From NCBI GenBank assembly GCA_030706635.1, contig JAUZOD010000001.1:1-64000 (forward strand): 64,000 nucleotides of DNA, read 5' to 3'. Shown one piece after another: positions 18,508 to 58,754 of the stretch (the stretch's first letter is position 1; every line of letters begins with the position of its first letter). Origin of the DNA: Bacteroidota bacterium. Its GTDB lineage: Bacteria; Bacteroidota; Bacteroidia; Chitinophagales; Chitinophagaceae. The notes beneath the pieces are model-generated. The model made no database searches. It was not told where the DNA came from and worked only from the letters and a program-made list of their open reading frames with translations. The position numbers were made by a program, and so were the translations under genes.

Positions 18508-18591
18508 GTTGATGGTATATGGTTGATGGTGGATGGATAGAGATGCGAATTTCCACCCAAGTCCATCCACCATCAACCATATACCATTAAC
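18508..18591. repeat. Heptamer-armed palindrome, copy A
   Basis: An 84-base imperfect palindrome. The left arm is a run of seven-base units GTTGATG, GTATATG, GTTGATG, GTGGATG; the right arm runs CATCCAC, CATCAAC, CATATAC, CATTAAC and pairs with it. Between them is an asymmetric core containing GCGAATTTCCACC. It ends two bases before the stop codon of the minus-strand PorT-like gene (18594). Four similar elements lie at 19310, 25080, 46568 and 58697. Confidence 0.85.
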
Positions 18592-18593
18592 CT

Positions 18594-19181
18594 TTATATT
18601 ATCCTAAACCCAACATACAACTGAATCGTCTGAGCCTGCCACTTATAATTATCATTGATATCGTTCAGATTATTTAAGCCGACGATGTACCTGGCCCCTA
18701 CTTTAAATCCGCCCAAATTGAGTTGTGCCCCCCCGACAACCGAAAAATCGCCCGATTTGAAAGCATTCAAAGCAGAGGTGCCGATATTATCACTCAGTTT
18801 TATACCAAACTGAGGGCCGACAAGGATGCTTATCAAAGGAATTGGCCTAATAGACAACAATACAGGAATACTGAGATAATTCATATAAACATCTCTGCCA
18901 GAGTAACCGGACAGCTGATATATCTGATCAAAATTAGTGGCAGTTCGTGTATTTGTCTGGTTGAATAAGAGTTCCGGCTGCAGGCCAATGTGTTTGTTGA
19001 AATTCAATTCAGCAAATGCACCTCCGCTAAGGCCTAATTTAAACCCATTGGAAAAAGACTCTCCGCCTTGCAATTGAGACATATTGACACCACCCTTCAC
19101 ACCCAGATGAAATCCCTGGGCAAAAAGGCTTCCCGAAGAAATAAAAAGCACGGCTAAAAATAAGAACGAGGCTTTTTTCAT
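18594..19181 (-). CDS. PorT-family outer membrane beta-barrel protein
   Basis: A 195-residue outer membrane protein with a signal peptide (1-21, ending GSLFAQ). The mature sequence is a small eight-strand-type barrel of alternating hydrophobic residues with glycines (GVKGGVNMSQL, QPELLFNQ, VGPQFGIKL, QLYVGFRII), typical of the PorT/OMP_b-brl_2 family of Bacteroidota. Such proteins are widespread, usually of unknown role. Flanked on both sides by heptamer palindromes, copy A directly behind its stop codon and copy B upstream of its promoter region. Confidence 0.85.
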   Translation of the reverse strand: MKKASFLFLAVLFISSGSLFAQGFHLGVKGGVNMSQLQGGESFSNGFKLGLSGGAFAELNFNKHIGLQPELLFNQTNTRTATNFDQIYQLSGYSGRDVYMNYLSIPVLLSIRPIPLISILVGPQFGIKLSDNIGTSALNAFKSGDFSVVGGAQLNLGGFKVGARYIVGLNNLNDINDNYKWQAQTIQLYVGFRII

Positions 19182-19309
19182 ATACTATGAATTATGATTT
19201 TAGAAATAAGAACACAATTTATCCCGAACGAAGAAACATCGCGATTCATTTCCTGTTAAAAAAATTTAACAGGTTGTTAAGTTGGATACTAAAACTATAC
19301 CAGGAAAGG

Positions 19310-19391
19310 GTGTATGGTATATTGTGGATAGTGGATGGGGTTTAATTGCGAATTCGCACCTGGAATCCATCCACCATATACCATATACCAT
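19310..19391. repeat. Heptamer-armed palindrome, copy B
   Basis: An 82-base palindrome. Left units GTGTATG, GTATATT, GTGGATA, GTGGATG; right units CATCCAC, CATATAC, CATATAC, CATCCCC. The core has GCGAATTCGCACCTGG. It lies about eight bases beyond the stop codon (19399) of the minus-strand phosphoesterase gene. Confidence 0.85.
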
Positions 19392-19398
19392 CCCCCTT

Positions 19399-20646
19399 TT
19401 ATGCCAATTCAATCAAAGTTATTTCCGGCAGAATCCCCACCCGGCCCGGATAACCGATGAATCCATATCCGCGGTTAACGTACAGCTTCTGTTTTCCCAC
19501 TTCGTACAGGCCCGCCCATTCTTTATAAACATATTGCACAGGACTCCATTTAAACCCCGGTATTTCTACACCGAATTGCATGCCATGGGTATGGCCTGCG
19601 AGGGTTAAATCAATATCGCCGTATTTAGGGCGTACCTCCGCGTCCCAGTGACTGGGGTCGTGACTCATGAGAATTTTAAAAGGATATTTCTCCGTTCCGG
19701 GATAGGCTTCCCCCATCTTACCGTACTTCGGAAACCGCTTTTTGGCACTCCAGTTTTCAATGCCGATCAGGGCGATCTGATCGGTTTCCCTTTCGAGAAT
19801 CACATGTTCATTCATCAGCAACCGCCAGCCCATATCTGTTTCTATTTTTTTCAAATGCTCAATATTCTGCAGGCGCGCCTCAGGGCTCGGCCAGTGCACA
19901 TAATCACCATAGTCGTGATTACCCAGGGTTGAAAAAACTCCCATAGGCGCTTTCAGCCGGCTGAATACGTCGAAATAATCCGCCATTTCCGTTGCCCTGT
20001 CATTGATGAGGTCACCGGTAAATAGAATCAGATCCGGCTTCAGGTCCAGGATCATCTGAACTCCTTTTTCCACTGCTTTTTTATTGGTGAAACTGCCGGA
20101 ATGGATATCGGAAACCTGTGCAATTTTCAAACCCTTAAAGGCCGCCGGTAAATTTTCAAAGCTCAGCGGAACCCGCCGGATATGATAATTGTATTTATTG
20201 CTGAACCCGTATATAAGGGACGTAAACAAACTTCCTCCAACGCCTATGCCCAGCCAGCTCAGAAATAAAGACCGGGAGATACCCTCACTCACCTCGCTCG
20301 CACCTTCCGTATTCCTGAAAAATATTTTTCCGGCGGCCCATTGGATGACCCTTCGCATGTCGTCGATAAGAAAAAAAACTGCAGCCAGCAATTTGGCAAA
20401 AAATAATCCGATAACCGCGGCAAATATATAATTGCGTAGACTTTTCGGCCACCGGTCGGGCTGAATAAAGGGAAGGAGAAGGAACAGGATCACTACGGCA
20501 ATGGAGAGGGTCCAGTAGCCCGTATAAATCAGAGACCGGGTGCGCTGGGAAGCCCCCTGAGTAAGCAATTTCACTACCTGAAATACATACAGATCCAGAA
20601 GCAACATAACAAGGGCGACCAGCCACACAAAACTTGCATTGCGCAT
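19399..20646 (-). CDS. Membrane-anchored calcineurin-like metallophosphoesterase
   Basis: A 415-residue protein with about four membrane segments in the first 125 residues, followed by a metallophosphoesterase domain. The five metal-binding blocks are all present: VSDIHSGSF (DxH), FTGDLIND (GD), LGNHDYGD (GNHD), MSHDPSHW (H) and AGHTHGMQFG (GHxH). It resembles YkuE/YaeI-type enzymes that act on lipid or nucleotide phosphates at the membrane. Substrate unknown. Downstream of the flavin reductase gene by 21 bases on the same strand. Confidence 0.92.
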   Translation of the reverse strand: MRNASFVWLVALVMLLLDLYVFQVVKLLTQGASQRTRSLIYTGYWTLSIAVVILFLLLPFIQPDRWPKSLRNYIFAAVIGLFFAKLLAAVFFLIDDMRRVIQWAAGKIFFRNTEGASEVSEGISRSLFLSWLGIGVGGSLFTSLIYGFSNKYNYHIRRVPLSFENLPAAFKGLKIAQVSDIHSGSFTNKKAVEKGVQMILDLKPDLILFTGDLINDRATEMADYFDVFSRLKAPMGVFSTLGNHDYGDYVHWPSPEARLQNIEHLKKIETDMGWRLLMNEHVILERETDQIALIGIENWSAKKRFPKYGKMGEAYPGTEKYPFKILMSHDPSHWDAEVRPKYGDIDLTLAGHTHGMQFGVEIPGFKWSPVQYVYKEWAGLYEVGKQKLYVNRGYGFIGYPGRVGILPEITLIELA

Positions 20647-20667
20647 GAAATAGATTTAACTGTACTA

Positions 20668-21165
20668 TTAAAAATCGATGAATTCGTCCAGTTGCGTATT
20701 GACCATGCTTAACGTTTCCTCATGACCCATCCCGTCCTGATCAAACAGGGTGTCAACAATGGAAATGGGTAGTTTGTTCGGATGGACCACCATGCGGATA
20801 TAATGCAAGATGCCGGTGAGATGATCCATCCCCCTCAGGTTACCCGCCCTTCCCCGGGAAACGCCGGTGAGCAGAGCCTTTTTCCCCATCCATACTTTTT
20901 TATAATCCGTTATATCGATCAGGCATTTCAGCACCCCGGGAATGCTGCCATTGTATTCAGGACTGATAAAAAGAAACTTAGTGGCAGGTATCAGCAGATC
21001 CTTTTCCAGTTGCAGGATGGATGGGTTTCTTTCCAGCACATTCAGATCCACCAGGGAAAGAACAGGCGCCTGAATATTTTTTTCCCTGAGAAGCGATTGA
21101 TATAGTTCCGCAATCCGCAGGGTATAACTTCCTCTCCGGTTTGTGCCTGATATGATAAGATACAT
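20668..21165 (-). CDS. NAD(P)H-dependent FMN reductase family protein
   Basis: A 165-residue flavodoxin-fold oxidoreductase. The FMN phosphate loop is ISGTNRRGSYT at residues 5-15, and the second flavin-binding loop is SPEYNGSIPGVLK near 69-81, both hallmarks of the NADPH-dependent FMN reductase/azoreductase group. It reduces flavins, quinones or similar acceptors; the natural substrate cannot be told. It precedes the phosphoesterase gene on the minus strand and is divergent from parA. Confidence 0.9.
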   Translation of the reverse strand: MYLIISGTNRRGSYTLRIAELYQSLLREKNIQAPVLSLVDLNVLERNPSILQLEKDLLIPATKFLFISPEYNGSIPGVLKCLIDITDYKKVWMGKKALLTGVSRGRAGNLRGMDHLTGILHYIRMVVHPNKLPISIVDTLFDQDGMGHEETLSMVNTQLDEFIDF

Positions 21166-21342
21166 GTAAGTGCAAGTTAGGTTGAACCGGTATTTTTCTC
21201 AAGTCGCCGGGCAAGTTTGTATTTTTACTGCGGGAATGACCGGGAAAGGCAAACTAAATTTTGTACTTTTCCCGATAGGATACATCTTTACGAGCTTAGC
21301 CGGGTTTCGCAGCCGGGCGGCCGTCTTAAAACTGTGGCTTAT

Positions 21343-22143
21343 ATGGCAAGAATCATTGGGGTGGCAAATCAGAAAGGAGGGGTTGGGAAAACCACTTCTG
21401 CCATTAACTTAGCGGCAAGCCTTGCGGTGCTGGAATTCAGGACGCTGCTGGTGGACGCGGATCCCCAGGCCAACAGCACTACGGGTGTTGGGTTCGACCT
21501 GCATAACATCACGCAGAGCCTTTATGATTGCATGGTAAACCAGACCCCGGCCAAAGATGTCGTCCTGAAATCTGAGGTTCCCCATCTGGATCTGATCCCC
21601 AGCCACATAGATCTGGTGGGCGCAGAAATTGAGATGATCAATTATCCGGAACGGGAAAGCGTGCTGAAGAATATCCTGGAACCTATCCGCGGCAGCTATG
21701 ACTTTATCATCATAGATTGCTCCCCTTCCCTGGGCCTGATTACTGTGAATGCGCTCACGGCAGCCGATTCTGTGATCGTTCCGGTACAAACAGAGTTTTT
21801 TGCCCTGGAAGGCCTTGGTAAACTTCTGAATACCGTCAAGATCGTGCAGAGCCGTCTGAACCCAAATCTGGCCATTGAAGGCATCCTGATGACCATGTAC
21901 GACGGGCGCCTGCGTCTTTGCAATCAGGTGGTGAGTGAGGTGCGTAAGCATTTTGACGAGATCGTTTTCAATACCATAATCCACCGGAATTCCAAGATCA
22001 GTGAAGCGCCAAGTGTGGGCAAACCGGTAATATTATATGATGCCTACAGTAAGGGCGCCATGAATTATCTCAATCTCGCGAAAGAGGTTTTGCAGAAAAA
22101 CAATATGACCCGGATGACCCAGGAAGAACGCATTCTCGAATAG
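21343..22143 (+). CDS. parA: Chromosome partitioning ATPase ParA (Soj)
   Basis: P-loop ATPase of 266 residues that segregates the origin region together with ParB. The deviant Walker A motif [15 protein letters not shown] is at residues 9-23, Walker B in [11 protein letters not shown], and the DADPQANST motif follows strand two. The frame is open from 21217, but the ATG at 21343 starts immediately before the conserved [12 protein letters not shown]. It is followed 25 bases later by parB. I saw no parS-like 16-base palindrome in this window. Confidence 0.95.
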
Positions 22144-22168
22144 CAGCGTGCGAAATACGAAATCAATC

Positions 22169-23089
22169 ATGACCACTCCGAATAAGAAAGATAAAGAAGC
22201 ACTGGGAAAGGGAATCCGTTCTCTTCTTCAACATATTGATACAGATCTGAAAACGGCCGGCGGCGGCCTTCGGCCGGCTGTGGCCGAAAACATAACCGGC
22301 ATCCTTCGTATTCCACTTGATCTCATCGAAACAAATCCAAAACAGCCGCGCCGCGATTTCGATGAAACCGCTTTACAGGAACTCTCTGCTTCTATCCGGA
22401 TGCACGACATCATTCAACCCATTACGGTTTCGAAGTTGGCGGGCGGCAAGTACCGCCTGATTTCCGGCGAACGCCGGCTCCGTGCAGGCAAGCTCGCCGG
22501 AATCAAAGATATCCCGGCCTATATCCGTCAGGCCAATGATCAGCAACTGCTCGAGCTTGCCCTGCTGGAAAATCTCCAGCGCGAAGATCTCAACGCCATG
22601 GAAGTGGCCCTGAGTTATAAACGCATGATGGACGACCTCAACTTTACCCAGGAACAGGTTTCTGAAAGAATGGGTAAAGAAAGAAGCACTGTTGCCAACT
22701 ACGTCCGCCTGCTTAAACTCCCACCCGATATCCAGGTGGCGCTCCGGAACAACGTGATCTCCATGGGTCATGCGCGGGCTCTGATCAATGTGGATACCGT
22801 GGATAAACAACTGTATTTGTTTCAGGAAATAAAACACCGCTCCCTATCTGTTCGCCAGACCGAAGAACTCGTTCGTAAATTATACAAAACAAGCCCCGCT
22901 GTTAAAGAATCTGTAAAAGCTCCATTACCGGAAGCATACAGAAAAATTGAAGATACTTTAGCAACGCATTTCAGCACCCGCGTAAAGCTCAGTCACAACA
23001 GCAAGGGAGAAGGAAGTATCTCCATCGAATACTATTCTGTGCAGGAGCTCAATAAAATTCTTGATCAGCTAGGCGTGGAGATTAATTAA
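22169..23089 (+). CDS. parB: Chromosome partitioning protein ParB
   Basis: Centromere-binding CTPase of 306 residues. The N-terminal ParB/Srx domain holds the CTP-binding motif GERRLRAGK and ENLQREDLNAME; the helix-turn-helix region is QEQVSERMGKERSTVANYVRLL; the C-terminal ~60 residues form the dimer domain. The frame has a GTG start at 22148, but the ATG at 22169 before TTPNKKDKEALGKG is the usual beginning. It loads at parS sites and is driven by ParA. Confidence 0.95.
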   Translation: MTTPNKKDKEALGKGIRSLLQHIDTDLKTAGGGLRPAVAENITGILRIPLDLIETNPKQPRRDFDETALQELSASIRMHDIIQPITVSKLAGGKYRLISGERRLRAGKLAGIKDIPAYIRQANDQQLLELALLENLQREDLNAMEVALSYKRMMDDLNFTQEQVSERMGKERSTVANYVRLLKLPPDIQVALRNNVISMGHARALINVDTVDKQLYLFQEIKHRSLSVRQTEELVRKLYKTSPAVKESVKAPLPEAYRKIEDTLATHFSTRVKLSHNSKGEGSISIEYYSVQELNKILDQLGVEIN

Positions 23090-23098
23090 GCGTTCGGT

Positions 23099-23860
23099 AT
23101 GAGGCAGGTAATTTTCTTTCTCTTTTTATTCACCGGGATTTCTTTCGCACAAACCGTTTACAGTCAGCAGCGGGACAGCATTCCACGAATCGGTTCCGAC
23201 AGCTCCCGGATGCCGAAACCGGTTAGACAACACATAGATTCCGTTCCGCTTAAGAAAGCTTTTCTGCATCAGGACACGCTGCTGGTAAAAGGAGACAGCA
23301 TATCGTCAATTTCCAAAACCGCTATTCAGCAGGAAAAAGATTCTGCTGTACTCAGAAAAAAACACAATCCGAGAAAGGCCACAATTTATTCTGCCATTCT
23401 GCCCGGAGCCGGTCAGGTTTACAACCATAAATTCTGGAAGGTCCCTATCGTGTACGCGGCCATCGGCATTCCTGCTTATACGTTTTTTTATAACAAGAGC
23501 TGGTACCAGAAATGCCAGTACGCCCTGGTGGTAACCATTAATGGGAGTCGGGGGGACAGTCTTTCCAAAGTAGACCCCACCTTGCTTCCGCTGGTTAACA
23601 ATGGCGATGTAAACGATATCATCACCAACCGGGACAGTTTCCGGAAGAACCAGGATTATTCCGTATTATTTTTTATATTATTTTACGGTTTGAATATTGT
23701 GGATGCCACGGTAGATGCCCATCTAAGGGATTTTAACGTGAACAGCGACCTTAGTTTTAAAATAAAACCCCTGCTGATCACCGCTCCCAACCTGATTGCC
23801 GGCGTGAGTTTGGTATTCGATATCCATAAACCCAGGCTCAGGTCCCTGAACATGCACTAA
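23099..23860 (+). CDS. DUF5683 domain protein
   Basis: A 253-residue protein with a signal peptide (1-18, ending SFAQ), a low-complexity Ser/Asp linker to about residue 95, and the DUF5683 domain (RKATIYSAILPGAGQVYNHKFWKVPIVY onward) with two to three hydrophobic segments. The domain is found in Bacteroidota between parB and dapB, as here; its role is not known, though the membrane segments and cell-division-type neighbours suggest an envelope function. It starts nine bases after parB and ends 15 bases before dapB. Confidence 0.9.
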   Translation: MRQVIFFLFLFTGISFAQTVYSQQRDSIPRIGSDSSRMPKPVRQHIDSVPLKKAFLHQDTLLVKGDSISSISKTAIQQEKDSAVLRKKHNPRKATIYSAILPGAGQVYNHKFWKVPIVYAAIGIPAYTFFYNKSWYQKCQYALVVTINGSRGDSLSKVDPTLLPLVNNGDVNDIITNRDSFRKNQDYSVLFFILFYGLNIVDATVDAHLRDFNVNSDLSFKIKPLLITAPNLIAGVSLVFDIHKPRLRSLNMH

Positions 23861-23875
23861 CATCATTGATTACTT

Positions 23876-24592
23876 ATGAAGATAGCATTAATCGGATATG
23901 GGAAAATGGGCAGGACGATAGAAAAAATTGCCCTGCAGAAAGGTCACGAAATCATTCTGAAAATTGACCTGGATAACGGTTATGAATTAACAGCTGAGAA
24001 CTTAACTAAAGCTGATGTGGCCATTGAATTTACCGGGCCCGCCAGCGCGGCAGACAACCTGCGCAGATGCATTGATGCCGGGGTGCCGGTTGTTTGCGGA
24101 TCCACCGGCTGGCTGAATGAATATGAATCCATAAAAAAAGCGGTTGAAAAAAAAGACGGCACTTTTTTATACGCCAGTAATTTCAGCATTGGGGTAAATA
24201 TTTTCTTTGAACTGAACAAAAAACTGGCTTCTTTGATGGCAGCCCATCCGGATTACCGGGTGAGTATCCGGGAAACACATCATACCCAGAAAAAAGACGC
24301 ACCGAGTGGTACTGCCATTACCCTGGCGGAGCAGGTGCTGGAAAACATTTCCAATTTGAAATCCTGGGTTAACCATCCTTCTTCCTCTCCGGAAGAGCTG
24401 CCAATCACCAGCGAACGTCTGGACCCGGCTCCGGGAACCCATGAAGTGATCTACAGGTCTGCCATAGACGATCTGGAGATTAAACATACAGCCCACAGCC
24501 GGGAGGGTTTTGCCAGCGGAGCCGTGCTTGCCGCTGAGTATATCTGCCATAAAAAGGGCATTTTTTCCATGAAGGACGTGTTGGGATTCTGA
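23876..24592 (+). CDS. dapB: 4-hydroxy-tetrahydrodipicolinate reductase
   Basis: NAD(P)H-dependent reductase of the lysine/diaminopimelate pathway, 238 residues. N-terminal Rossmann motif LIGYGKMGRTIEKIA (4-18), the catalytic/substrate region RETHHTQKKDAPSGTA (about 138-153) with the conserved His pair and Lys, and the C-terminal SAIDDLEIKHTAHSREGFASGAVLAAEY. It supplies diaminopimelate for peptidoglycan. Last gene of the parA-parB-DUF5683-dapB run; the lepB that often follows in this phylum is not here. Confidence 0.96.
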   Translation: MKIALIGYGKMGRTIEKIALQKGHEIILKIDLDNGYELTAENLTKADVAIEFTGPASAADNLRRCIDAGVPVVCGSTGWLNEYESIKKAVEKKDGTFLYASNFSIGVNIFFELNKKLASLMAAHPDYRVSIRETHHTQKKDAPSGTAITLAEQVLENISNLKSWVNHPSSSPEELPITSERLDPAPGTHEVIYRSAIDDLEIKHTAHSREGFASGAVLAAEYICHKKGIFSMKDVLGF

Positions 24593-24668: not shown

Positions 24669-25079
24669 ATGCTGTCCAAAAAAACCCAATACGCTTTTCA
24701 GGCCCTGATGTATCTGTCCGAGAAATCCAATGAGGGGCCGGTATTGATAGCAGAAATCTCCAAAAAGAAAAAGATTCCCCTGAAATTTCTGGAAAACATT
24801 CTGCTGGAATTAAGAAAAGCCGGTATCCTGGAAAGTAAAAAAGGAAAAGGCGGCGGCTATTTTTTTGCCAAAGATCCGAATTCGGTCACCCTGGCTACGG
24901 TTATGCGCCTGATAGATGGCCCCATTTCCCTGCTGCCCTGCGTAAGTCTCTATTTTTACGAAAAATGCTGGAACTGCGATGAAAAACACTGCGGACTGCA
25001 CGAAGTATTGGTGCAGGTGCGGGACGCCAATTTGCGATTGCTGGAAAAGAAGACGATTGCTGATCTGAGGAAGAAATAG
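24669..25079 (+). CDS. Rrf2-family transcriptional regulator
   Basis: Winged-helix regulator of 136 residues. The N-terminal HTH is in MLSKKTQYAFQALMYLSEK through LKFLENILLELRKAGILESKKGKGGGY. The C-terminal part carries four cysteines, Cys91, Cys100, Cys103 and Cys108 (spacing 8-2-4), a likely iron-sulfur site; IscR uses three cysteines with different spacing. So it may sense iron-sulfur, redox or NO status. It ends at the base before palindrome copy D and converges with groEL. Confidence 0.9.
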   Translation: MLSKKTQYAFQALMYLSEKSNEGPVLIAEISKKKKIPLKFLENILLELRKAGILESKKGKGGGYFFAKDPNSVTLATVMRLIDGPISLLPCVSLYFYEKCWNCDEKHCGLHEVLVQVRDANLRLLEKKTIADLRKK

Positions 25080-25165
25080 GTTGACCGTTGACAGTTGACG
25101 GTTGACGGACATTAGTTGCGGATTCGTCCCTGAAGTCGGTCAACGGTCAACCGTCAATCGTCAAC
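25080..25165. repeat. Heptamer-armed palindrome, copy D
   Basis: The cleanest copy. Left arm: four heptamers GTTGACC, GTTGACA, GTTGACG, GTTGACG. Right arm: tandem GTCAAC-type heptamers (GGTCAAC, GGTCAAC, CGTCAAT, CGTCAAC) that pair with the left. Core between them contains TTGCGGATTCGTCCCTGAAG. It begins one base after the Rrf2 stop codon (25077-25079) and abuts the groEL terminator on the other side. Confidence 0.9.
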
Positions 25166-25215: not shown

Positions 25216-26859
25216 TTAATAATCCATTCCACCCATGCCTGGAGCGCCACCGCCCGGATGAGCATTTGCTTCTTCTTTTTTGGGCCGGTCAGCAACCACA
25301 CATTCTGTGGTCAGCAACATGCCGGCAATAGAAGCTGCATTTTCAAGGGCAATGCGGGTAACCTTAGTAGGGTCAATAACGCCAGCCTTGAGCAGGTTTT
25401 CATAAACTTCCGTACGGGCGTTGAAACCGTAGTCAGCCTTTCCTTCCTTCACCTTCTGCACCACGATACTACCTTCGATTCCGCAATTATGAACGATCTG
25501 GCGAAGCGGCTCTTCGATAGCGCGCTTAACGATCAGAATTCCTGTTGTTTCGTCTTCGTTAGCAGCTCCTTTCAGTTTTTCCAGAGGCTCGATGGCACGG
25601 ATATAAGCAACTCCGCCACCAGGAACGATTCCTTCTTCAACAGCTGCCCTTGTAGCATGTAAGGCGTCGTCAACGCGATCCTTCTTCTCCTTCATCTCCA
25701 TTTCTGTTGCGGCACCAATATACAATACAGCCACACCACCGCTTAATTTTGCGAGGCGTTCCTGCAGTTTTTCCTTATCATAATCTGAAGTAGTTACTTC
25801 AATCTGCGCCTTGATCTGGTTTACACGGGCAGCGATGTCTTCTTTCTTTCCTTTTCCACCAACGATGGTGGTATTGTCTTTATCAATGGTTACGGAAGAG
25901 GCAGAGCCCAGATAGCTGAGGTCGGCATTTTCGAGCTTGTAACCCTGATCTTCACTGATCACCAGACCCTTGGTGAGGGTTGCGATATCCTGGAGCATTT
26001 CTTTTCTGCGGTCGCCAAAGCCGGGAGCCTTAACAGCAGCCACTTTCAACGTGCCACGCAGCTTATTCACCACGAGTGTTGCCAGCGCTTCCCCTTCGAG
26101 GTCTTCGGCAATGATCAGGAGCGGACGTCCGCCCTGTGCCACTTTCTCCAGAATTTGTAAAATATCTTTCATTGCAGAGATCTTCTTATCATAAATGAGA
26201 ATATAGGGGTTCTGCAATTCAGCTTCCATTTTTTCGCTGTTGGTAACGAAATAAGGAGAAATATAACCACGGTCGAACTGCATACCTTCCACTACATCTA
26301 CTGTAGTGTCAGTACCTTTTGCTTCTTCAACGGTAATCACCCCTTCTTTACCCACTTTCGAAAACGCCTCTGCAATCAGCTTGCCGATGTTTTCATCGTT
26401 GTTTGCTGAAATGGAAGCTACCTGCTGAATCTTTTTGCTGTCGTTCCCAATGGTCTGAGACTGTTGTTTCAGGTTGTTTACCACGGCAATCACCGCTTTA
26501 TCAATCCCTCGCTTGAGGTCCATCGGATTAGCGCCTGCAGCTACGTTCTTGAGTCCTTCACTGATGATGGACTGAGCCAGAACCGTGGCCGTGGTCGTTC
26601 CGTCACCGGCAATATCCGCTGTTTTGGAAGCTACTTCTTTCACCATCTGGGCACCCATGTTTTCAATCAGGTCTTCCAGTTCAATTTCTTTTGCCACGGT
26701 AACTCCATCTTTTGTAATCGTGGGAGCTCCGAATTTCTTTTCGATTACCACGTTGCGTCCTTTGGGACCCAGGGTAACTTTTACGGCATTGGCCAGTACG
26801 TCAACGCCTTTTTTCATCTTATTTCTCGCTTCGATGTCGAAGAAAAGTTGTTTAGCCAT
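25216..26859 (-). CDS. groEL: Chaperonin GroEL (60 kDa)
   Basis: Cytoplasmic ATP-dependent folding chaperone, 547 residues, family-standard length. Nucleotide-site motifs [11 protein letters not shown] and [14 protein letters not shown], the equatorial [17 protein letters not shown] and the C-terminal GGM-type tail ([10 protein letters not shown]) are intact. It is the second gene of the operon, 112 bases after groES; that spacer is filled by an octamer-armed palindrome (26869-26970). Terminator at 25166-25192. Confidence 0.98.
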
Positions 26860-26868
26860 TGTTGTTTA

Positions 26869-26970
26869 ATTTGAAGATTTGATAATTTGATGATTTGAAA
26901 ATTGAAGAACTTGAAAATGATTACATGCTTTTATCAACACATTTTCAAATTTTCAAATTTTCAAATTTGC
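26869..26970. repeat. Octamer-armed palindrome between groES and groEL
   Basis: Left arm (plus strand) is tandem 8-base units ATTTGAAG, ATTTGATA, ATTTGATG, ATTTGAAA, then two diverged units; right arm is ATTTTCAA three times plus ATTTGC. A 24-base core (26917-26940) separates them. It begins one base beyond the groES stop codon (26972) and ends nine bases before the groEL start codon, inside an operon. A second copy lies at 53364-53430. Confidence 0.85.
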
Positions 26971-26971
26971 T

Positions 26972-27265
26972 TTAAAATTTTGCGATGATATCAGACTCTC
27001 TCATGCTTAAGAAATCCTGGCCCTCAAAGCTGATTTCGGTTCCGGAATATTTGCCGTAAAGCACAACATCGCCTACTTTAACCACAGGCTTTTTGCCGTC
27101 TTCGTCGATATCGCTGATGGCAACAACTTCGCCTCTTTGCGGCTTTTCCTTTGCTGTATCGGGAATGATGATTCCGCCGGAAGTTTTTTCTTCGGCCGGC
27201 GCAGGTTTTACAAAAACTCTGTTTTTGGTACCTGCGATTGGTGAGATCGCTAACTTTTTAGCCAT
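26972..27265 (-). CDS. groES: Co-chaperonin GroES (10 kDa)
   Basis: GroEL lid protein of 97 residues. The mobile loop region ([19 protein letters not shown]) and the beta-barrel residues [32 protein letters not shown] are present. First gene of the groES-groEL operon. The leader has a predicted -7 element and a GC-rich hairpin, described separately. I found no CIRCE operator (TTAGCACTC inverted repeat). Confidence 0.97.
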
Positions 27266-45230: not shown

Positions 45231-46553
45231 ATGGCGATTGTAGATCTGTTAATGCCGAAAATGGGTGAGAGCATTATGGAGGCCACGATTCTCAAGTGGC
45301 ATAAGCATCCCGGAGATACGGTGAAGCAGGATGAATCTTTACTGGATATAGCCACGGATAAGGTTGACAGCGAAGTTCCCTCTACAACGGCCGGTGTTCT
45401 GGAAGAAATTCTTTTCCAGGTAAATGATGTCGTGCCCGTGGGTGCTGTTATAGCCAGAATAAAAACGGAAGTAGCGGAACCCGTGCCGGATGAAGTTAAA
45501 CCGTCAGTTCCGGAAGAAAGAGAGACTCCGGTTATGGCGTCCCATCCGGATCAGGCTCCGGATGCAGTAAAATCGAATGGCAACCGGTTTTATTCTCCCC
45601 TGGTATTGAATATTGCTGGCAATGAGGGCATTTCTGTCGGTGAGCTGGAAAAGATTCCGGGAACGGGTAATGAAGGAAGAGTGACCAAGAGAGACATCCT
45701 GCAATATGTTACACATAAAAAGGAAAGCAACGGATCTTTTGCAGGATCCTTCGGAGAATCTGCGCAATCAGGATTCGATGAAACCCAGCCCTATCCGGGC
45801 GCCGCTCCCGAAACATCCGGAAAAACGCCGGACGCTTTTGAATACAGTGCCGGCGGGAACGTAGAAATCCAGGAAATGGATAGAATGCGCCGGCTCATTG
45901 CCGACCACATGGTGAGAAGTAAGCATACCAGCCCTCATGTAACCAGTTTTTCTGAAGCAGACGTAACGAACCTGGTGACCTGGCGCGAAAAGGAAAAAGC
46001 AGATTTTGAAAAAAGAGAAGGTACCAAACTTACCCTGACCCCCTTATTCATTGAAGCCCTTGTAAAGTGCATTAAAAAATATCCGCTGATCAACAGTTCT
46101 CTGCAGGGAGATAAGATCATCATCCGGAAAGATATCCATATCGGGATGGCTACGGCGTTGCCCTCGGGCAGCCTGATTGTTCCGGTGATCAAATATGCCG
46201 ATAATTTCAATCGTGTAGGCCTTGCGCGGCAGGTGAACATGCTGGCCAACCAGGCCCGCAACAATAAATTAAAGCCGGAAGACATCCAGGATGGCACTTT
46301 TACGCTTACGAACGTAGGTGTTTTCGGCAGCCTGATGGGCACGCCCATTATCAACCAGCCCCAGGTGGCTATTCTTGCCGTGGGTGCCATCAAAAAGCGT
46401 CCTGTGGTGATCGAAACCGAACAGGGCGACGCGATCGGTATCCGTCATATGATGTATCTGTCCATGAGCTATGACCACCGGATTATAGACGGTAGCCTGG
46501 GCGCGACTTTTCTGAGCGCTGTGGCTAAGGAGCTTGAGGCGTTTACAGCTTGA
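45231..46553 (+). CDS. 2-oxo acid dehydrogenase E2 component (dihydrolipoamide acyltransferase)
   Basis: A 440-residue acyltransferase core of a 2-oxo acid dehydrogenase complex. Order of domains: lipoyl domain with Lys44 in IATDKVDSE (about 1-77), Pro/Glu linker, E1/E3-binding domain (FYSPLVLNIAGNEGISVGELEKIPGTG, about 120-165), second linker, and catalytic domain with DHRIIDGSLG (His and Asp of the HxxxDG site). It sits alone, without E1 or E3 genes nearby, so which substrate (pyruvate, branched-chain or 2-oxoglutarate) is used cannot be told; the branched-chain type seems plausible. Starts from ATG at 45231. Confidence 0.93.
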   Translation: MAIVDLLMPKMGESIMEATILKWHKHPGDTVKQDESLLDIATDKVDSEVPSTTAGVLEEILFQVNDVVPVGAVIARIKTEVAEPVPDEVKPSVPEERETPVMASHPDQAPDAVKSNGNRFYSPLVLNIAGNEGISVGELEKIPGTGNEGRVTKRDILQYVTHKKESNGSFAGSFGESAQSGFDETQPYPGAAPETSGKTPDAFEYSAGGNVEIQEMDRMRRLIADHMVRSKHTSPHVTSFSEADVTNLVTWREKEKADFEKREGTKLTLTPLFIEALVKCIKKYPLINSSLQGDKIIIRKDIHIGMATALPSGSLIVPVIKYADNFNRVGLARQVNMLANQARNNKLKPEDIQDGTFTLTNVGVFGSLMGTPIINQPQVAILAVGAIKKRPVVIETEQGDAIGIRHMMYLSMSYDHRIIDGSLGATFLSAVAKELEAFTA

Positions 46554-46567: not shown

Positions 46568-46645
46568 GTTATGGTGGATAGTCGATGGATCCTAAGTGCA
46601 AAATCGCTCCTGGGTTCCATCCACTATCCACCATATACCATCTAC
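46568..46645. repeat. Heptamer-armed palindrome, copy C
   Basis: A 78-base palindrome. Left arm has GTGGATA and GTCGATG units; right arm CATCCAC, TATCCAC, CATATAC, CATCTAC. Core contains GCAAAATCGCTCCTGG, matching the other copies. It starts 15 bases after the E2 stop codon. Confidence 0.8.
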
Positions 46646-52784: not shown

Positions 52785-53356
52785 GTTGCCCAGGCCTTAT
52801 CCCCTTTTTTATAGGGAATACAGCCCTCATATCTCCCTGGGACTGCCACATAACGGAGTGCCTGTGTGGCGCCGTCTTTGGAGGTAAAGTAACCCCACAA
52901 GGTGAGTTCTTTCATCATCCGGAAATAGTGGGAAGGATCTTCCTGCTTTTGCTTTGCCGTATATTCCTTCTGCTCTTTGTCGAGCCCAACCAGCAGGTTA
53001 TGCCTTTCTTCAGGCGTGGATTCGAGAAATGCTTTGCCGTTTTTCGATTTGCTGGCCGCATCGAGTTTCTTCATGCCTTCTACAAAGACTTTTTGGTCTT
53101 TGTCTTCATAACAATCACTCACAATGGTTTTCATGAATTCTCCGATTCCCGTTGCCTTGGCACCCGGTGTGCTCGTTGCCGGAATAATGGTTTCTCCCAC
53201 TTCATCCAGAAACGCAATATCGTCGGGAGAAAACTGAAGACCCGCAGCCCCAATGCTTTTATCCGCATTCGTACAGCCGGATAAGAACATCTCTGCGCCT
53301 ATGATTGTGCCGCCCAACAGCAGGGCTACGGAGGAGAGGGCTTCGCGTCTGTTCAT
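52781..53356 (-). CDS. Gluconate 2-dehydrogenase subunit 3 family protein (Tat-exported small subunit)
   Basis: A 191-residue exported subunit. The N terminus has a twin-arginine motif (NRREALSSVALLLGG) followed by a lipobox (FLSGCTN, Cys28). In GMC-type membrane sugar dehydrogenases such a small subunit carries the catalytic subunit through the Tat system, which fits here because the GMC protein has no signal of its own. The gene follows the GMC gene after a 74-base gap that contains an octamer palindrome. Likely a periplasmic partner of the dehydrogenase. Confidence 0.9.
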   Translation of the reverse strand: MNRREALSSVALLLGGTIIGAEMFLSGCTNADKSIGAAGLQFSPDDIAFLDEVGETIIPATSTPGAKATGIGEFMKTIVSDCYEDKDQKVFVEGMKKLDAASKSKNGKAFLESTPEERHNLLVGLDKEQKEYTAKQKQEDPSHYFRMMKELTLWGYFTSKDGATQALRYVAVPGRYEGCIPYKKGDKAWAT

Positions 53357-53363
53357 AGTTTCC

Positions 53364-53430
53364 GATTTGAAAATTTGATGATTTGAGAATTTGAAAATTT
53401 CATTTACACATTACTACATTTTCAAATTGA
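53364..53430. repeat. Octamer-armed palindrome between the GMC and subunit 3 genes
   Basis: Left arm is tandem 8-base units GATTTGAA, AATTTGAT, GATTTGAG, AATTTGAA; right arm begins ATTTTCAA and runs into the stop codon of the GMC gene (53431). Core CATTTACACATTACTAC. It lies inside an operon, between two subunits of one enzyme, like the copy between groES and groEL. Confidence 0.8.
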
Positions 53431-55110
53431 TTAAATGTTTCTTTTTTTCAACTCACTCACCGCGTGGTCTGCAGCTCTTGCCGTAAAGGCCATGTAGGTA
53501 AGCGAGGGGTTCACACAGGATGCAGATACCATGAACGAGCCATCTGTTACAAATACATTGGGTGCGTCCCAGATCTGGTTGTATTTATTTAAAACGGATG
53601 TTTTAGGATCCTTGCCCATACGCGCAGATCCCATTTCATGGATGCCACGGCCCAGTGTCCCGTCACCGTCATGACCCTTTACGTTCTTAACGCCGGCAGC
53701 AGTGAGCATTTCCACGGCATCGTTCTGCATGTCTTTTCTCATCCTGACTTCGTTCTCCTTATACTCAATATCCATGGCCAGCACATTCAGTCCCCACTTG
53801 TCTTTGCGGGTCTTGTCCAGGGTAATCTGGTTTTCGTGATAAGGCAGGGTTTCACCGAAGCCGCCTATACCCAGGGACCATGGACCTGGTTCTGATAATG
53901 CATTCTTCAGGTCCACACCAATGGCCACTTCTTCTGCCGAACGCTGGTATCCTTGACGGCTTCCACCGCCCTGATAGCCAAATCCCCTCAGGTAATCACG
54001 TTTGTCGCCAAAAATATTCCGGAACCGGGGGATATAAATGCCGTTGGCCCTTCTGCCATAATAATACTTATCCTCATATCCTTCCACCGTTCCGCTGGCG
54101 CCTACACCAAGATGATGATCCATGATGTTATGTCCGAGCTCGCCACTGCTGCTGCCTAGTCCGTCTGGCCATACATCGGTTGCCGAATTCATCAGGATCC
54201 AGGCGCTGTTTAACGTGGATGCATTGAGGAAGATGATCTTTGCGTTATAGGTATATGTTTTATTCGTTTCTCCGTCCAGCACTTCTACCCCGGTAGCTCT
54301 TTTTTTATCTTTATCGTACAGGATTTTGGTAACGATCGCCCATGGCCTTACCGTGAGGTTGCCGGTTTTCATGGCTGCCGGCAGCGTGGATGACTGGGTG
54401 CTGAAATAGGCGCCAAAAGGACAACCGAGCCAGCATTTATTCCGGTACTGGCAATTGGTTCTGCCGGGGAGGGGCTCTGTAATATTCGCCGTTCTTCCGA
54501 TGATCACCGGACGAGTGCCCTTGAAATGATCTTTCATCCGCGCAGCAAAATCCTTTTCAACACAGGTCATCTCCATGGGCGGCATGAACTGTCCGTCGGG
54601 CAATACTTCCAGCCCGTCCCGGTTTCCACTGATGCCGGCGAACCGCTCTGCATGATCATACCAGGGTGCTATTTCCTTATAGCGAACGGGCCAGTCTACG
54701 GCATGACCATCTTTTGCATTGGCCTCGAAATCATGATCGCTCCAGCGATAACTCTGACGGCCCCACATCAGCGACCTTCCGCCTACATGATAACCGCGAA
54801 ACCAATCGAACCGTTTGATTTCCGTATACGGACTGTCTTTATCACTGCACCAGTAATCCAGATTGGTTTCATTCAGTGGATAGTCCCTTTTCAGTACCGG
54901 ATAATCTTTAATCATCTGCTGCGTCCGGGTTCCCCGGTGAGGATAATCCCAGGCCTCCTTATTTGCATTCACATAATCTTTTACGTGTTCAATATTACGA
55001 CCGCGTTCCAGCATGATGGTCTTAAGCCCTTTTTCACAAAGCTCTTTTGCGGCCCATCCTCCGCTGATCCCTGAGCCGATCACAATCGCGTCATACACAT
55101 TGTCTGCCAT
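53431..55110 (-). CDS. GMC-type FAD-dependent sugar dehydrogenase, catalytic subunit
   Basis: A 559-residue flavoprotein. N-terminal FAD motif VIGSGISGGWAAKELCEKG (10-28), C-terminal GMC residues GIHEMGSARMG (catalytic His) and CVNPSLTYMAFTAR. A cysteine cluster NCQYRNKCWLGC (Cys220, 226, 230) could hold an iron-sulfur centre as in some FAD-dependent sugar dehydrogenases. Together with the small Tat subunit and the cytochrome c nearby it resembles glucoside 3-dehydrogenase, which makes 3-keto-glycosides in the periplasm. Substrate inferred from context only. Confidence 0.9.
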   Translation of the reverse strand: MADNVYDAIVIGSGISGGWAAKELCEKGLKTIMLERGRNIEHVKDYVNANKEAWDYPHRGTRTQQMIKDYPVLKRDYPLNETNLDYWCSDKDSPYTEIKRFDWFRGYHVGGRSLMWGRQSYRWSDHDFEANAKDGHAVDWPVRYKEIAPWYDHAERFAGISGNRDGLEVLPDGQFMPPMEMTCVEKDFAARMKDHFKGTRPVIIGRTANITEPLPGRTNCQYRNKCWLGCPFGAYFSTQSSTLPAAMKTGNLTVRPWAIVTKILYDKDKKRATGVEVLDGETNKTYTYNAKIIFLNASTLNSAWILMNSATDVWPDGLGSSSGELGHNIMDHHLGVGASGTVEGYEDKYYYGRRANGIYIPRFRNIFGDKRDYLRGFGYQGGGSRQGYQRSAEEVAIGVDLKNALSEPGPWSLGIGGFGETLPYHENQITLDKTRKDKWGLNVLAMDIEYKENEVRMRKDMQNDAVEMLTAAGVKNVKGHDGDGTLGRGIHEMGSARMGKDPKTSVLNKYNQIWDAPNVFVTDGSFMVSASCVNPSLTYMAFTARAADHAVSELKKRNI

Positions 55111-55133
55111 GATAGCTGATTAATAATGATGAA

Positions 55134-56027
55134 TTAAATATCGCAAATCCGTACGGCTTTGCTCAGAGAATCGATCTTATCCTTTGCTTCCGGTATAAAT
55201 TCCTGTGCAACATACCCTTTAAAGCCCGTAGCCAGAATGGCTTTCATGATGGCGGGATAATAAAGTTCCTGGGTTTCATCTATTTCATGACGACCCGGAA
55301 CGCCGCCGGTATGATAGTGTCCCAAGTATTCGTGATTATCCCGTATGGTTCTGATCACATCCCCCTCATCTATCTGCATGTGATAGATATCGTATAAGAG
55401 TTTGAAGTTAGGGCTGCGCAGTCGCTTACACAGCTCCACTCCCCAGGGGGTGTGGTCGCACATATAATCTTTGTGGTCCACACGGCTGTTCAGCAGTTCC
55501 ATGTGCACCGTGATACCCTGCTGCTCGGCAGAGGGCATGATCGCTTTCAAACCCTTCACACAATTGTTCCAACCCGTTTCATTGTCCATCCCGGCCCGGC
55601 TCCCGCTGAAGCAGATCACATCTTTGTACCCGGCTTTCACCATCAGCGGAAATACATCCAGGTACTGCGCGATGAGCTTGCTGTGATTAGCAGTATCGGC
55701 AAAACCCTGGGTCAGACTCACATCTCCGGCCACATAGCACATGGAGCTGTAGAGGCCATATTTCTGTAACAGCGGCCAGTCTTTCGGCGCTACCAGGTCT
55801 ATCGCATTCAAACCGATGGCTTTTACCTGCTGGCAGAAATCCTCAAACGGAATACTGTCATAGCACCAGCGGCATACCGAGTGGTTGATATTTCCTTTCA
55901 GCTTCAATGGACTTTCGGGATTTTGGTTAGGAGAATAAGAAGACAGCACTTGTGAACTGGTTAGCAGCGCTGCGGAACCGGCGATCATATTTTTAATAAC
56001 TTTTCTTCTGGATGATGGATTATCCAT
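55134..56027 (-). CDS. Exported sugar phosphate isomerase/epimerase-like TIM barrel (hydroxypyruvate isomerase-like)
   Basis: A 297-residue xylose-isomerase-like TIM barrel. N terminus has a Tat-type motif (SSRRKVIKNMIAGSAALL), so it acts in the periplasm. Likely metal ligands appear in VHMELLNSRVDH, LYDIYHMQIDEGD, HYHTGGVPGRHE and VAQEFIPEA. Start ATG at 56027; an in-frame TTG at 56033 adds two residues. It sits between the MFS transporter and GMC genes on the same strand. In 3-keto-glycoside pathways such barrels act on the keto sugar; here unproven. Confidence 0.88.
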   Translation of the reverse strand: MDNPSSRRKVIKNMIAGSAALLTSSQVLSSYSPNQNPESPLKLKGNINHSVCRWCYDSIPFEDFCQQVKAIGLNAIDLVAPKDWPLLQKYGLYSSMCYVAGDVSLTQGFADTANHSKLIAQYLDVFPLMVKAGYKDVICFSGSRAGMDNETGWNNCVKGLKAIMPSAEQQGITVHMELLNSRVDHKDYMCDHTPWGVELCKRLRSPNFKLLYDIYHMQIDEGDVIRTIRDNHEYLGHYHTGGVPGRHEIDETQELYYPAIMKAILATGFKGYVAQEFIPEAKDKIDSLSKAVRICDI

Positions 56028-56078
56028 GGGCAATCATTGAAGGTTAATTTACGAACTCCTGGCCTAAAAAAAGCACAA

Positions 56079-57368
56079 TTAATGACCGGCAGCTGCAGAA
56101 ACCAAAAGATCAGGCTTCTTGCGCCCTTTCATATAAATGTTCAACCCGGCAAAGACTATAATCAGGACCAGGGGAATCATCATAGTGAGATTAATGACCT
56201 CGGGACCGGCTGCTTTTTTAGCTTCCGACAGCACATGGGCAAGATCTGATCCTGCCGGTGCTTCATTGTATAGTCTAAAATCGGCGCCCGCTGGAAGTTT
56301 CCCTGCTACCAGGGCATCGTAATGCTTGCCCATGAAAATCATGTAAACAGAAACAGCAAACATGCCCGCTCCCCCCATCAGATTCAAACCCACGGCTCCT
56401 GTTTTTGGAAGATTCTCCGATACAAATCCGATCATGGTTGGCCAGAAATAGCAGACACCCATGCCGAAGACGAGGGCGCCGACGAAAATGGTATTGCCCG
56501 AAGTATGGCCAAGCATATATAGGCCAAGAAAAGCCAGAATAGCAGAAATCAGCAATACGCCCTGGGGAGAAAACCGATGGACCACGGGCCCTGCGAAGGC
56601 ACGTCCGACAACCATAACTCCGGTTTCCAGGGTCAGGATAAGCAGCGCATTATCTGTAACATTTTTCAGGAGCACATCAATCCACTGTCCCGTAAAGAGT
56701 TCGGTAATTGCCGTCCCGAACATGCACAGGATCATAAAAATAAAAAGCCCTGAGAGCACTGATTTATACATCTCTGCATTCGATACGCCGGCAGCCACCC
56801 GTTCGGTAACCGGAAACTTGAGTTTGGAAAAGAGATATCCATAGATCAGGGTGGGAATGAGCATGATGGCCACTTCTACCTGCCAGCTTACACCAATCTT
56901 ATTCAGGAAGAAAACAATCAGCGTCCCGATCACGATACCCGCCGGGAACCACAAATGAAAATGATTCAGTTTGGTGGTTTTATTTTCGGGGAAAAGAGAC
57001 GCTACCAGGGGATTACAGGCTGCCTCAACAGTCCCGTTCGCGATGCCAATTAACAAGGTAGAAAGAAATAAGGTCCAGTATCCGCCTGCAAAAATAGTGA
57101 GCAGGATACCTGCCAGATGAAGGATGAACGCCAGAACGAGCAGTTTTTTCATCCCGATGATATCCACGATAAAACCACCGATGATGATGGCAAGGGGAAA
57201 CCCCCAGAATGCAGTCGCGGTAATGGTTCCCAGCTCAGAAGCATTGAGGTGATACTGAACGCCCAGATCATTGAGTATTCCGGCACGGATTCCAAAAGAA
57301 AGGGAAGTAACAAGAAGGGCTAAACAACTGGCGGTAAAAAGATGGTTGCGGTGGGGGACATTCTGCAT
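56079..57368 (-). CDS. MFS sugar transporter (FucP-like)
   Basis: A 429-residue major facilitator permease with about 12 membrane segments. It begins RNHLFTASCLALLVTSLSFGIRAGILNDLGVQY, with WGFPLAIIIGGFIVDIIGMKKLL typical for the first half. FucP/nucleoside-type MFS proteins move sugars with protons. It is the first gene of the minus-strand sugar operon; the divergent promoter region (57369-57533) separates it from the Gfo/Idh/MocA operon. Substrate unknown. Confidence 0.9.
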   Translation of the reverse strand: MQNVPHRNHLFTASCLALLVTSLSFGIRAGILNDLGVQYHLNASELGTITATAFWGFPLAIIIGGFIVDIIGMKKLLVLAFILHLAGILLTIFAGGYWTLFLSTLLIGIANGTVEAACNPLVASLFPENKTTKLNHFHLWFPAGIVIGTLIVFFLNKIGVSWQVEVAIMLIPTLIYGYLFSKLKFPVTERVAAGVSNAEMYKSVLSGLFIFMILCMFGTAITELFTGQWIDVLLKNVTDNALLILTLETGVMVVGRAFAGPVVHRFSPQGVLLISAILAFLGLYMLGHTSGNTIFVGALVFGMGVCYFWPTMIGFVSENLPKTGAVGLNLMGGAGMFAVSVYMIFMGKHYDALVAGKLPAGADFRLYNEAPAGSDLAHVLSEAKKAAGPEVINLTMMIPLVLIIVFAGLNIYMKGRKKPDLLVSAAAGH

Positions 57369-57533
57369 GGCAATCGTTTTAAGTTTAAATCGTCAGTAAT
57401 ACATTTTTTCGAACAGGCAGTAAATGTAATTTTTTATTTCATAAATAAAAAAAAGCAAACAATTCGCCTTCCTGCCCTGAATTTGTCATTATTATTCTAA
57501 ACTTGCATTGAAAATGATCTAAAAATAAAGGTT
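57369..57533. promoter_or_regulatory. Divergent control region of the sugar-oxidation locus
   Basis: A 165-base AT-rich gap between the two divergent operons. It has a TTTG at 57482-57485 and TAAACTTG at 57498-57505, but their spacing is too short for a standard promoter pair. No operator can be named. Control of both operons from here is inference from layout. Confidence 0.35.
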
Positions 57534-58697
57534 ATGAATAGAAAATTACGAATGGGCATGGTTGGCGGTGGAAAAGATGCTTTTATCGGAGCTATCCATC
57601 GCATTGCCGCCAATATGGACGGACTGATAGAACTTTCCTGCGGCGCCCTCAGCATTCATGCTGATGTGGCAAAAGCATCCGGCGAGATGTTATTCCTCGC
57701 GCCGGAACGCACTTATCTGAATTACGAAGAGATGCTGGAGAAGGAAAGTAAGATGCCGGCAGACAAGCGGATTGACTTTGTAACGATCGTCACGCCCAAT
57801 TTCGCGCACTTTGCCCCGGCCATGCTGGCGCTGGAAAAAGGATTCCATGTGGTGATTGAGAAACCCATCACCTTCACGCTGGAAGAAGCGCAGTTATTAA
57901 AAAAGAAAGTGGAAGAAACAGGGCTGGTATTGTGCCTGACACACACTTATTCCGGCTATCCCATGGTAAAGCAGGCCCGTTACATGGTGCAAAATGGGGT
58001 GCTGGGAAAGGTGCGGAAGATCTGGGTTGAATATCCGCAGGGCTGGCTGAGCCGGAAAACGGAACGCGAAGGCAATGTACAGGCAGCATGGAGAACGGAT
58101 CCGAAGAAGTCTGGCAAAAGCGGGTGTATGGGAGACATCGGAACCCACGCCGCGCACCTGGCTGAATACATCAGCGGATTAAAAATCACCCGGCTCTGTG
58201 CAGACCTGAGTATAATGGTCGAAGGGCGGGCGCTGGAAGACGATGGAAACGTATTGCTAAAGTTTGATAACGGGGCAGCCGGTGTGCTGATGGCATCCCA
58301 GGTTGCGGCAGGTGAAGAGAATTCCCTGAAGATCAGGATCTACGGGGAGAAAGGCGGACTGGAATGGGCACAGCAGGAGCCCAATACGCTGATCGTAAAA
58401 TGGCTTGATCAGCCCACCCAGATCCTGCGGGCGGGCGTCGGATATAAAGAACCCCTCTCCTCTTTTGCCACACATAATCTCAGAACGCCCGGTGGGCATC
58501 CGGAAGGATATCTTGAAGCATTCGGTAATATCTATCACAATTTCGCCCAGACCCTCACGGCCCGCATAGATGGAACGACCCCTTCCGCCGAAAGCCTTGA
58601 TTTCCCCGGCGTGGATGACGGTATCCGCGGAATGAAATTCATCGATAATGTGGTTGCTTCTGCGGCGTCGAAGGAGAAATGGTATGATTGCAAATAG
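57534..58697 (+). CDS. Gfo/Idh/MocA family oxidoreductase
   Basis: A 387-residue cytoplasmic NAD(P)-dependent dehydrogenase. Start LRMGMVGGGKDAFIGAIHRIAANMDG (Rossmann motif), signature IEKPITFTLEEAQLLKKKVEE and the active region GKSGCMGDIGTHAAHLAEYISGL. It opens the plus-strand half of the sugar-oxidation locus, whose other genes point to keto-sugar or glycoside handling. Its stop codon shares its last base with palindrome copy E (58697). Substrate unknown. Confidence 0.92.
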   Translation: MNRKLRMGMVGGGKDAFIGAIHRIAANMDGLIELSCGALSIHADVAKASGEMLFLAPERTYLNYEEMLEKESKMPADKRIDFVTIVTPNFAHFAPAMLALEKGFHVVIEKPITFTLEEAQLLKKKVEETGLVLCLTHTYSGYPMVKQARYMVQNGVLGKVRKIWVEYPQGWLSRKTEREGNVQAAWRTDPKKSGKSGCMGDIGTHAAHLAEYISGLKITRLCADLSIMVEGRALEDDGNVLLKFDNGAAGVLMASQVAAGEENSLKIRIYGEKGGLEWAQQEPNTLIVKWLDQPTQILRAGVGYKEPLSSFATHNLRTPGGHPEGYLEAFGNIYHNFAQTLTARIDGTTPSAESLDFPGVDDGIRGMKFIDNVVASAASKEKWYDCK

Positions 58698-58754
58698 TTG
58701 ACGGTTGACGGGCCCTAGTTTCGGATCCGTACATGATATCGGTCAACGGTCAAC
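58697..58754. repeat. Heptamer-armed palindrome, copy E
   Basis: A 58-base copy with two GTTGACG units on the left and two GGTCAAC units on the right. Core contains TTTCGGATCCGTACATGATA, close to copy D. It overlaps the last base of the oxidoreductase stop codon and precedes the isomerase start by 20 bases, inside the operon. Confidence 0.85.

Follow-up and report, generated by a model that had tools for sequence, protein, structure and literature searches.

Dispersed gene-end palindromes with tandem-heptamer arms around a conserved core in a Chitinophagaceae genome

Five palindromes (elements A–E) in the first 64,000 nt of contig JAUZOD010000001.1 (assembly GCA_030706635.1, a Chitinophagaceae bacterium; hereafter the window) belong to a real dispersed family of repeats with at least 92 sites in their own genome (G000; 4.58 Mb, 99.93% complete). 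Each copy consists of an asymmetric, sequence-conserved core of ~22–30 bp set between mirror-image arms of tandem heptamers. The copies sit at gene ends, just behind stop codons, and they are dispersed, with occupied sites and sites that are empty in relatives. The two arms of a copy change in concert, the core is conserved without covariation of its pairs, and at sites shared between genomes the orientation of the core is about random.

All five palindromes had been pointed out in an earlier note on this DNA and were recovered here, each on the plus strand. Element A (18508–18591) has the arm GTTGATG-GTATATG-GTTGATG-GTGGATG, faced by its complement, around a variant core ATGCGAATTTCCACCCAAGTC, and 2 nt separate it from the stop of a minus-strand open reading frame (ORF) ending at 18594. 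Element B (19310–19391) carries GTGGAT/GTATAT arms and the core TTGCGAATTCGCACCTGGAATC at 19346–19367, and lies 7 nt from the stop of a minus-strand ORF ending at 19399. Four GTTGACN heptamers on each side flank the core TTGCGGATTCGTCCCTGAAGTC (25116–25137) of element C (25080–25165), which abuts the stop at 25079 and is convergent with an ORF ending at 25216. Element D (46568–46645), again with GTGGAT/GTATAT arms, has a diverged core, GTGCAAAATCGCTCCTGGGTTC, and begins 14 nt past the stop at 46553. The shortest, element E (58697–58754), has two GTTGAC heptamers on each side of the core TTTCGGATCCGTACATGATATC, and it starts on the final G of the TAG stop that closes the ORF ending at 58697. 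The earlier note was right that two types of unit occur but had interchanged C and D: GTTGAC units are found in C and E, and GTGGAT/GTATAT units in A, B and D.

Folded as DNA, elements A to E gave −30, −20, −23.1, −17.8 and −10.1 kcal/mol, and among 200 shuffles of each, 0, 0, 1, 0 and 9, respectively, folded as well, so that element E is weak taken alone. No Rfam model matched within the window at its gathering score. The seven-base period noted earlier held up: the best lag was 7 in four (A, B, C and D) of the six window palindromes with arms of at least 18, 8 in one and none in the other, compared to a best lag of 7 in 1/24 controls with shuffled arm letters.

Genome-wide searches extended the family well beyond the window. 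A pattern drawn from the core described in the earlier note matched nine places in the genome and its reversed control none, confirming that the core is shared, and the 22-mer TTGCGAATTCGCACCTGAAGTC, allowing up to three mismatches, matched 35 (15 forward, 20 reverse), again with none for the reversed pattern. Thirty copies were used to build a 58-position covariance model (R1), which gave at least 147 matches over both strands; these merged into at least 92 sites in place of the original five. This figure is a floor because only 150 of the 2,307 first-look candidates were scored. R1 is not specific for the core, as palindromes with the family's arms but other centres reach ~48 bits. Its best strand was plus for 49 copies and minus for 43, by a strand call that is itself unreliable; together with the frequent inversion of the core at shared sites (below), this removes the uniform core orientation of the window copies as a rule. 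With respect to replication direction, a point also raised in the earlier note, core orientation was not associated with GC skew (P = 0.13). The proposed family itself withstands the refutation set out in the earlier note, its core recurring with period-seven arms throughout this genome as well as in two congeneric relatives.

Four heptamers per arm were commonest (left 53/92, right 52/92), and element length, judged by pairing, was 58–118 bp, mostly 72–90 bp. Units are mixed and mirrored; for example, a left arm reading GTTGATG-GTATATG-GTTGATG is matched on the right by the complement in mirror order. Consensus and covariation counts were made on the 82 gapless copies of the 92, and arm-to-arm comparisons on 75. 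Across the outer arms, 86 cells had changed on both sides, compared to 33.5 after shuffling (0/1000). No covariation was detected in the inner hairpin formed by the TGCG/CGCA pairs (4 vs 2.9 shuffled) or in the core-side stem of five pairs adjoining the core (9 vs 12.3). Given that the outer arms co-vary and the inner pairs do not, it is pairing that is preserved in the arms and sequence in the core. The two arms of one copy also matched each other better than arms of different copies (0.771 vs 0.687, 0/2000), an advantage located in heptamers one to three.

Placement relative to genes was scored with our own codon-usage gene caller, trained on the window and approximate in its starts. Since it missed the ORF at 18594–19181, element A entered this count with the wrong neighbours. 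None of the 92 copies lay inside a called gene. Gene ends facing a copy numbered 110, with a median stop-codon distance of 6 nt; 28 sites were in convergent, 54 in codirectional and 10 in divergent spacers, and in codirectional spacers the copy was nearer the stop than the start in 48/54 cases (P = 3e−9). The stop codon fell within an arm at 29 of the 110 ends and within 15 nt of one at 55 more. This placed 84/110 ends over an element or at most 15 nt from it, the distance within which Escherichia coli repetitive extragenic palindromic (REP) sequences are reported to stall ribosomes, according to an excerpt of PMC12306157. In the genus relative G103, 23 loci showed the same placement (0 in genes, median stop distance 11 nt). 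Read inward, 130/184 arms closed all three reading frames within 28 nt (3.7% in shuffles); read outward, 1/184 did so. Three units suffice for this because GTTGACN holds TGA and seven is not a multiple of three, a point about stop-carrying seven-base units that is also made for TAACTGA repeats in a passage of PMC4679880.

The distribution of the family among relatives was narrow. In a sample of 98 genomes of the taxonomic family, R1 at 1e−5 matched five, the own genome included, and the loci of the other four had repeat arms with other centres. At a threshold of 0.01, 11/30 genomes of the genus matched, with at least 150 matches in G103, at least 147 in the own genome, 102 in G115, 26 in G122 and fewer in the others. 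Many copies of the family, core included, are present in G103 and G115. The best locus of G113 has a diverged core (6 mismatches), and in the best loci of G121, G122, G110, G118, G102, G111 and G116 no core was found (7–9 mismatches), the arms alone being alike. The core pattern TGCGRAYYCGCACCTGAAGTC matched no stretch in a wider contig collection, though G103 and G115, whose cores are variants, were included.

Comparison of individual gene junctions revealed turnover. Seven of the 25 top-scoring G103 loci share a gene junction with an own copy, and when six own sites were followed in up to six relatives, four lacked an element in two or more. Site C35:50697 is without a palindrome in four relatives; it holds a family element in G115 and, in G103 (L302 2459–2566, contig C125), GTTGATG arms around an unrelated centre with an inner hairpin of its own. 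Where the own genome has element B, GTTATGA-type heptamers form a palindrome in G103 and apparently likewise in G115, at a contig end. Across relatives, the corresponding gene ends are variously empty, closed by an ordinary terminator, or occupied by a different repeat-armed hairpin or by similar arms with another core; both occupied and empty sites, the comparison suggested in the earlier note, were found. Behind the gene matching window positions 18594–19181, G113 (L215) has an ordinary GC-rich, terminator-like hairpin as the centre of AGCCTAA-type heptamer arms.

Core orientation was followed through a wider shared-site set of 50 G103 and G115 elements, several of which were picked because synteny or close spacing pointed there. 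Because R1 does not call the strand reliably, the orientations at shared positions were rescored against the core consensus. Sixteen pairs were compared (14 two-flank sites and 2 one-flank, site C35:60212 entering twice; a second G103 copy was omitted at one site, as were the remaining one-flank rows and those classed 'other'). The core had the same orientation in 8, was inverted in 7 and was unclear in 1, with margins of only 6–9 in nine of the 16; pairs with a margin above 6 alone gave 5 same and 6 inverted.

The REP-associated tyrosine (Y1) transposase (RAYT) proposed in the earlier note did not emerge as the mover. PF01797, the model for Y1/RAYT transposases, had no match in the own genome or in the carriers G103 (86% complete) and G115 (80% complete), and it is present in 23/33 genus genomes; the family therefore does not follow this transposase. 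Element C had no match in phage and plasmid records at E 0.01, and viral contigs had none to the exact pattern of three plus three heptamers.

We favour, with confidence that is about evenly balanced, the reading that these are dispersed, non-coding, REP-like gene-end palindromes built as cassettes of a core within heptamer arms, the arms being kept palindromic by fold-back copying and the copies spread without a Y1 enzyme. The spread would rely on recombination or on an enzyme, in either case not on a Y1/RAYT transposase present today. The arms would gain and lose units by slippage in unit steps, and would stay complementary when one arm templates the other as the strand folds back; the same fold-back, or recombination between the arms, may invert or replace the core. 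Survival at gene ends would be favoured in two ways: stop-carrying units would close all frames from either side, three units sufficing, and a strong hairpin could replace a terminator or protect 3′ ends.

Several observations weigh against parts of this reading. Apparent core inversion could arise from hot spots that took repeated insertions. No clean target-site duplication, a mark of MITEs, was found, the junctions at C141:85276 and C35:63427 yielding none that is consistent and their flanks having diverged. Nor was a mobilising gene: the genes between the neighbouring copies read look ordinary, with the exception of one ORF (L320 1699–2259, own-genome contig C98). This ORF, seen once, lies between two oppositely oriented elements 0.7 kb apart and has a Pfam NUMOD4 match, with HNH_3 below the cut-off. 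The fourth heptamer matched barely better within than between copies (0.537 vs 0.513) and the numbers of left and right heptamers were not significantly correlated (Spearman 0.11, P = 0.28), both of which argue against one arm closely copying its length from the other. Arm mismatches on the core strand were more often G-T than A-C irrespective of gene direction (98 vs 51 in the gapless copies; 36 vs 19 by site, P = 0.03), an excess that was not predicted. The inward frame-closing asymmetry was absent from palindromes with other units (8 inward and 7 outward of 22 arms, the 11 palindromes in this 'other' class including L318, a copy of the present family), and is not supported as a rule for all repeat-armed palindromes.

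Evidence on transcript ends bears both on the hairpin's part in the favoured reading and on the strongest alternative, namely that the elements are mainly functional 3′-end signals (bidirectional terminators or RNase barriers) under selection, with the core as a putative binding site and spread incidental. Gene-end placement fits that alternative, as does the rarity of canonical terminators at convergent ends with an element (2/52 vs 13/42 without one where the gap was at least 40 nt, P = 4e−4; both ends of one spacer were counted separately). The best single case for a 3′-end hairpin role, which is plausible, is the site of element A; of 18 relatives, 15 carry a terminator-like hairpin downstream of the gene concerned, and no such hairpin besides the element is seen in the own genome. 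The convergent deficit may, however, reflect lack of room, because convergent spacers beside an element are short (median 16.5 nt) and those below 40 nt without one had terminators in 0/34. Codirectional ends showed no deficit (6/51 vs 12/86, P = 0.80), there was no T tract on the exit side (T in 8 nt, 2.84 over 110 ends vs 3.22 on the other side over 74 ends), and the sense RNA strand had no excess of G-U pairs (47 vs 41). We therefore do not call the elements intrinsic terminators, a class defined by a GC-rich hairpin followed by a T tract, which is missing here. These results tell against a terminator function in either reading, and the random orientation of the core relative to the same genes counts further against 3′-end signalling as the main role, which we consider rather unlikely.

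Less likely still is that the palindromes are neutral by-products, lengthened in their arms by slippage, tolerated only in harmless places and lacking any means of dispersal. Period seven does recur among long palindromes whose units are unrelated: in relatives, 18 long palindromes gave a best lag of 7 in five cases and 8 in two. Most genomes are moreover reported to have heptanucleotide repeats as their most abundant repeat class (Mrazek et al. 2007, cited in an excerpt of PMC4679880). For the family described here this view is contradicted, because slippage alone cannot disperse a core, and the 22-base core recurs 35 times against none for its control, with occupied and empty sites. Neutral slippage could account for palindromes without a shared core.

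That a nucleoid, gyrase-like or partition protein binds the elements, sited where transcription generates torsion, would suit a core conserved as sequence in many dispersed copies and the convergent sites; it is improbable given the absence of orientation bias with GC skew, the restriction to one lineage and the differing cores that other lineages hold within the same arms. Least probable of all, and disfavoured, are REPs mobilised by a RAYT or decayed IS200/IS605 ends, since ~100 intergenic palindromic copies 3′ of genes would fit (RAYT-REP systems are placed alike in excerpts of the literature) but PF01797 has no match in the own genome or in the incomplete G103 and G115, and the consensus has no GTAG end motif; loss of the transposase after spread is possible.

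The best reading among known systems is that placement and copy number are REP-like and the architecture is new. In the broad sense of high-copy intergenic palindromes downstream of genes, the elements (at least 92 sites, 0 in called genes, median 6 nt) are REPs. Passages of PMC3733652 describe REPs of the GTAG and CGTC superfamilies as short, many-copy palindromes between convergent or codirectional genes, which, like the elements here, lie downstream of coding regions and sometimes supply the stop codon; REPs there measure 20–40 bp, and CGTC stems 8–9 bp with loops of 4–5. In contrast, the elements described here are 58–118 bp long, have tandem-heptamer arms and no GTAG tag, and hold their core in either orientation. 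Assignment to the GTAG superfamily, with its unpaired GTAG-like end motif on a 20–40 bp hairpin and its RAYT flanked by two inverted REPs, was rejected: the consensus lacks GTAG and spans 58 bp before the outer arms, and PF01797 had no match in the three carriers, of which G103 and G115 are incomplete. The CGTC superfamily, with an unpaired CGTC end and a CCA-like tail (PMC3733652, in part), was rejected as well, CGTC lying here within the paired right arms and the centre being 20–30 nt. As non-autonomous, species-specific, high-copy palindromes the elements resemble RAYT-REP systems as outlined in part of PMC2817692, and the literature consulted here ties REP-like repeats to RAYT transposases or gives them no known mover. 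The elements differ from RAYT-REP systems and REPINs in that no Y1 match was found in the three carrier genomes and none was seen between the inverted copies examined. REPINs, too, are said to be non-autonomous, species-specific, high-copy palindromes.

Direct repeats of the heptamer TAACTGA, which an excerpt of PMC4679880 reports as intergenic in Beggiatoaceae, Cyanobacteria and Bacteroidetes, share with the present family the seven-base tandem units, the three-frame stops read forward and the patchy occurrence across phyla. They differ in being direct and, in the main genome of that report, mostly close upstream of starts, and the excerpt describes no paired arms around a core; a TAACTGA-type array was ruled out by the covarying paired arms and the stop-side placement. 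No described family of heptamer-armed palindromes was found in searches of the open-licence PMC literature, and one may be in print elsewhere. Cyanobacterial STRR heptanucleotide repeats likewise have a period of seven and many copies and, to our knowledge, have not been described as paired arms around a conserved core.

Repeat-armed palindromes also occur outside the family. The window holds two with ATTTGANN octamer arms and different centres, both lying shortly after a stop codon. The first (26860–26970; period 8, a different sequence of similar build) lies 3′ of the minus-strand ORF at 26972–27265 and before that at 25216–26859, also on the minus strand, which we take to be groES and groEL, respectively. 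The second (53350–53440) lies between a minus-strand ORF ending at 53431 and one starting at 53356. In G021, from another genus of the taxonomic family, GATGAC/GATGTT heptamer arms surround several different centres (L070, L074, L075, L077–L082; 31 pattern matches per strand, overlapping registers being counted separately).

A wider contig scan for a 14–44 nt centre with three flanking GTTGAC heptamers per side matched 46 stretches, in Chitinophagaceae metagenome-assembled genomes (MAGs), Steroidobacter, Lysobacteraceae MAGs, an Acidobacteria MAG, Desulfobacterales HSG2, Parabacteroides, Muribaculaceae, Microcoleus, Tychonema and Nostoc. Four further phyla thus contain palindromes with GTTGAC arms and different cores, the centres varying by lineage. 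The shared unit is no evidence of common descent because the query fixed it; placement is independent of the query. At the Steroidobacter, Lysobacteraceae, Acidobacteria and Desulfobacterales loci, 18/22 stop distances were within 30 nt and 1/22 elements lay inside a called gene (Lysobacteraceae), compared to 0/12 stop distances within 30 nt in the Microcoleus group. The Microcoleus palindromes, which are not near stop codons, resemble one another in their outer flanks, as though embedded in a longer repeat (L098, L106, L111, L118, L120, L121, L124, L136, L139 and L140). Several Steroidobacter and Lysobacteraceae centres look alike by eye, as if related, with CAGAAG near one end and CTGACC/CTGGCC near the other (L099–L101, L110, L112, L126, L128, L132, L134, L141 and L142).

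We suggest, tentatively, that such palindromes may form a distinct class of element: gene-end hairpin cassettes whose stop-carrying units of seven, sometimes eight, bases would close every frame on both sides, whose core could be inverted or swapped within standing arms, and which would carry lineage-specific cores in at least five phyla and spread by a non-Y1 enzyme. With ~90 copies, empty sites in near relatives and no Y1 match, the present family offers a clean system for finding another route by which small palindromes spread. It also raises a testable question, namely by what means paired tandem arms remain complementary as their sequence changes, and a second, whether the fold-back that would maintain the arms also inverts the core.

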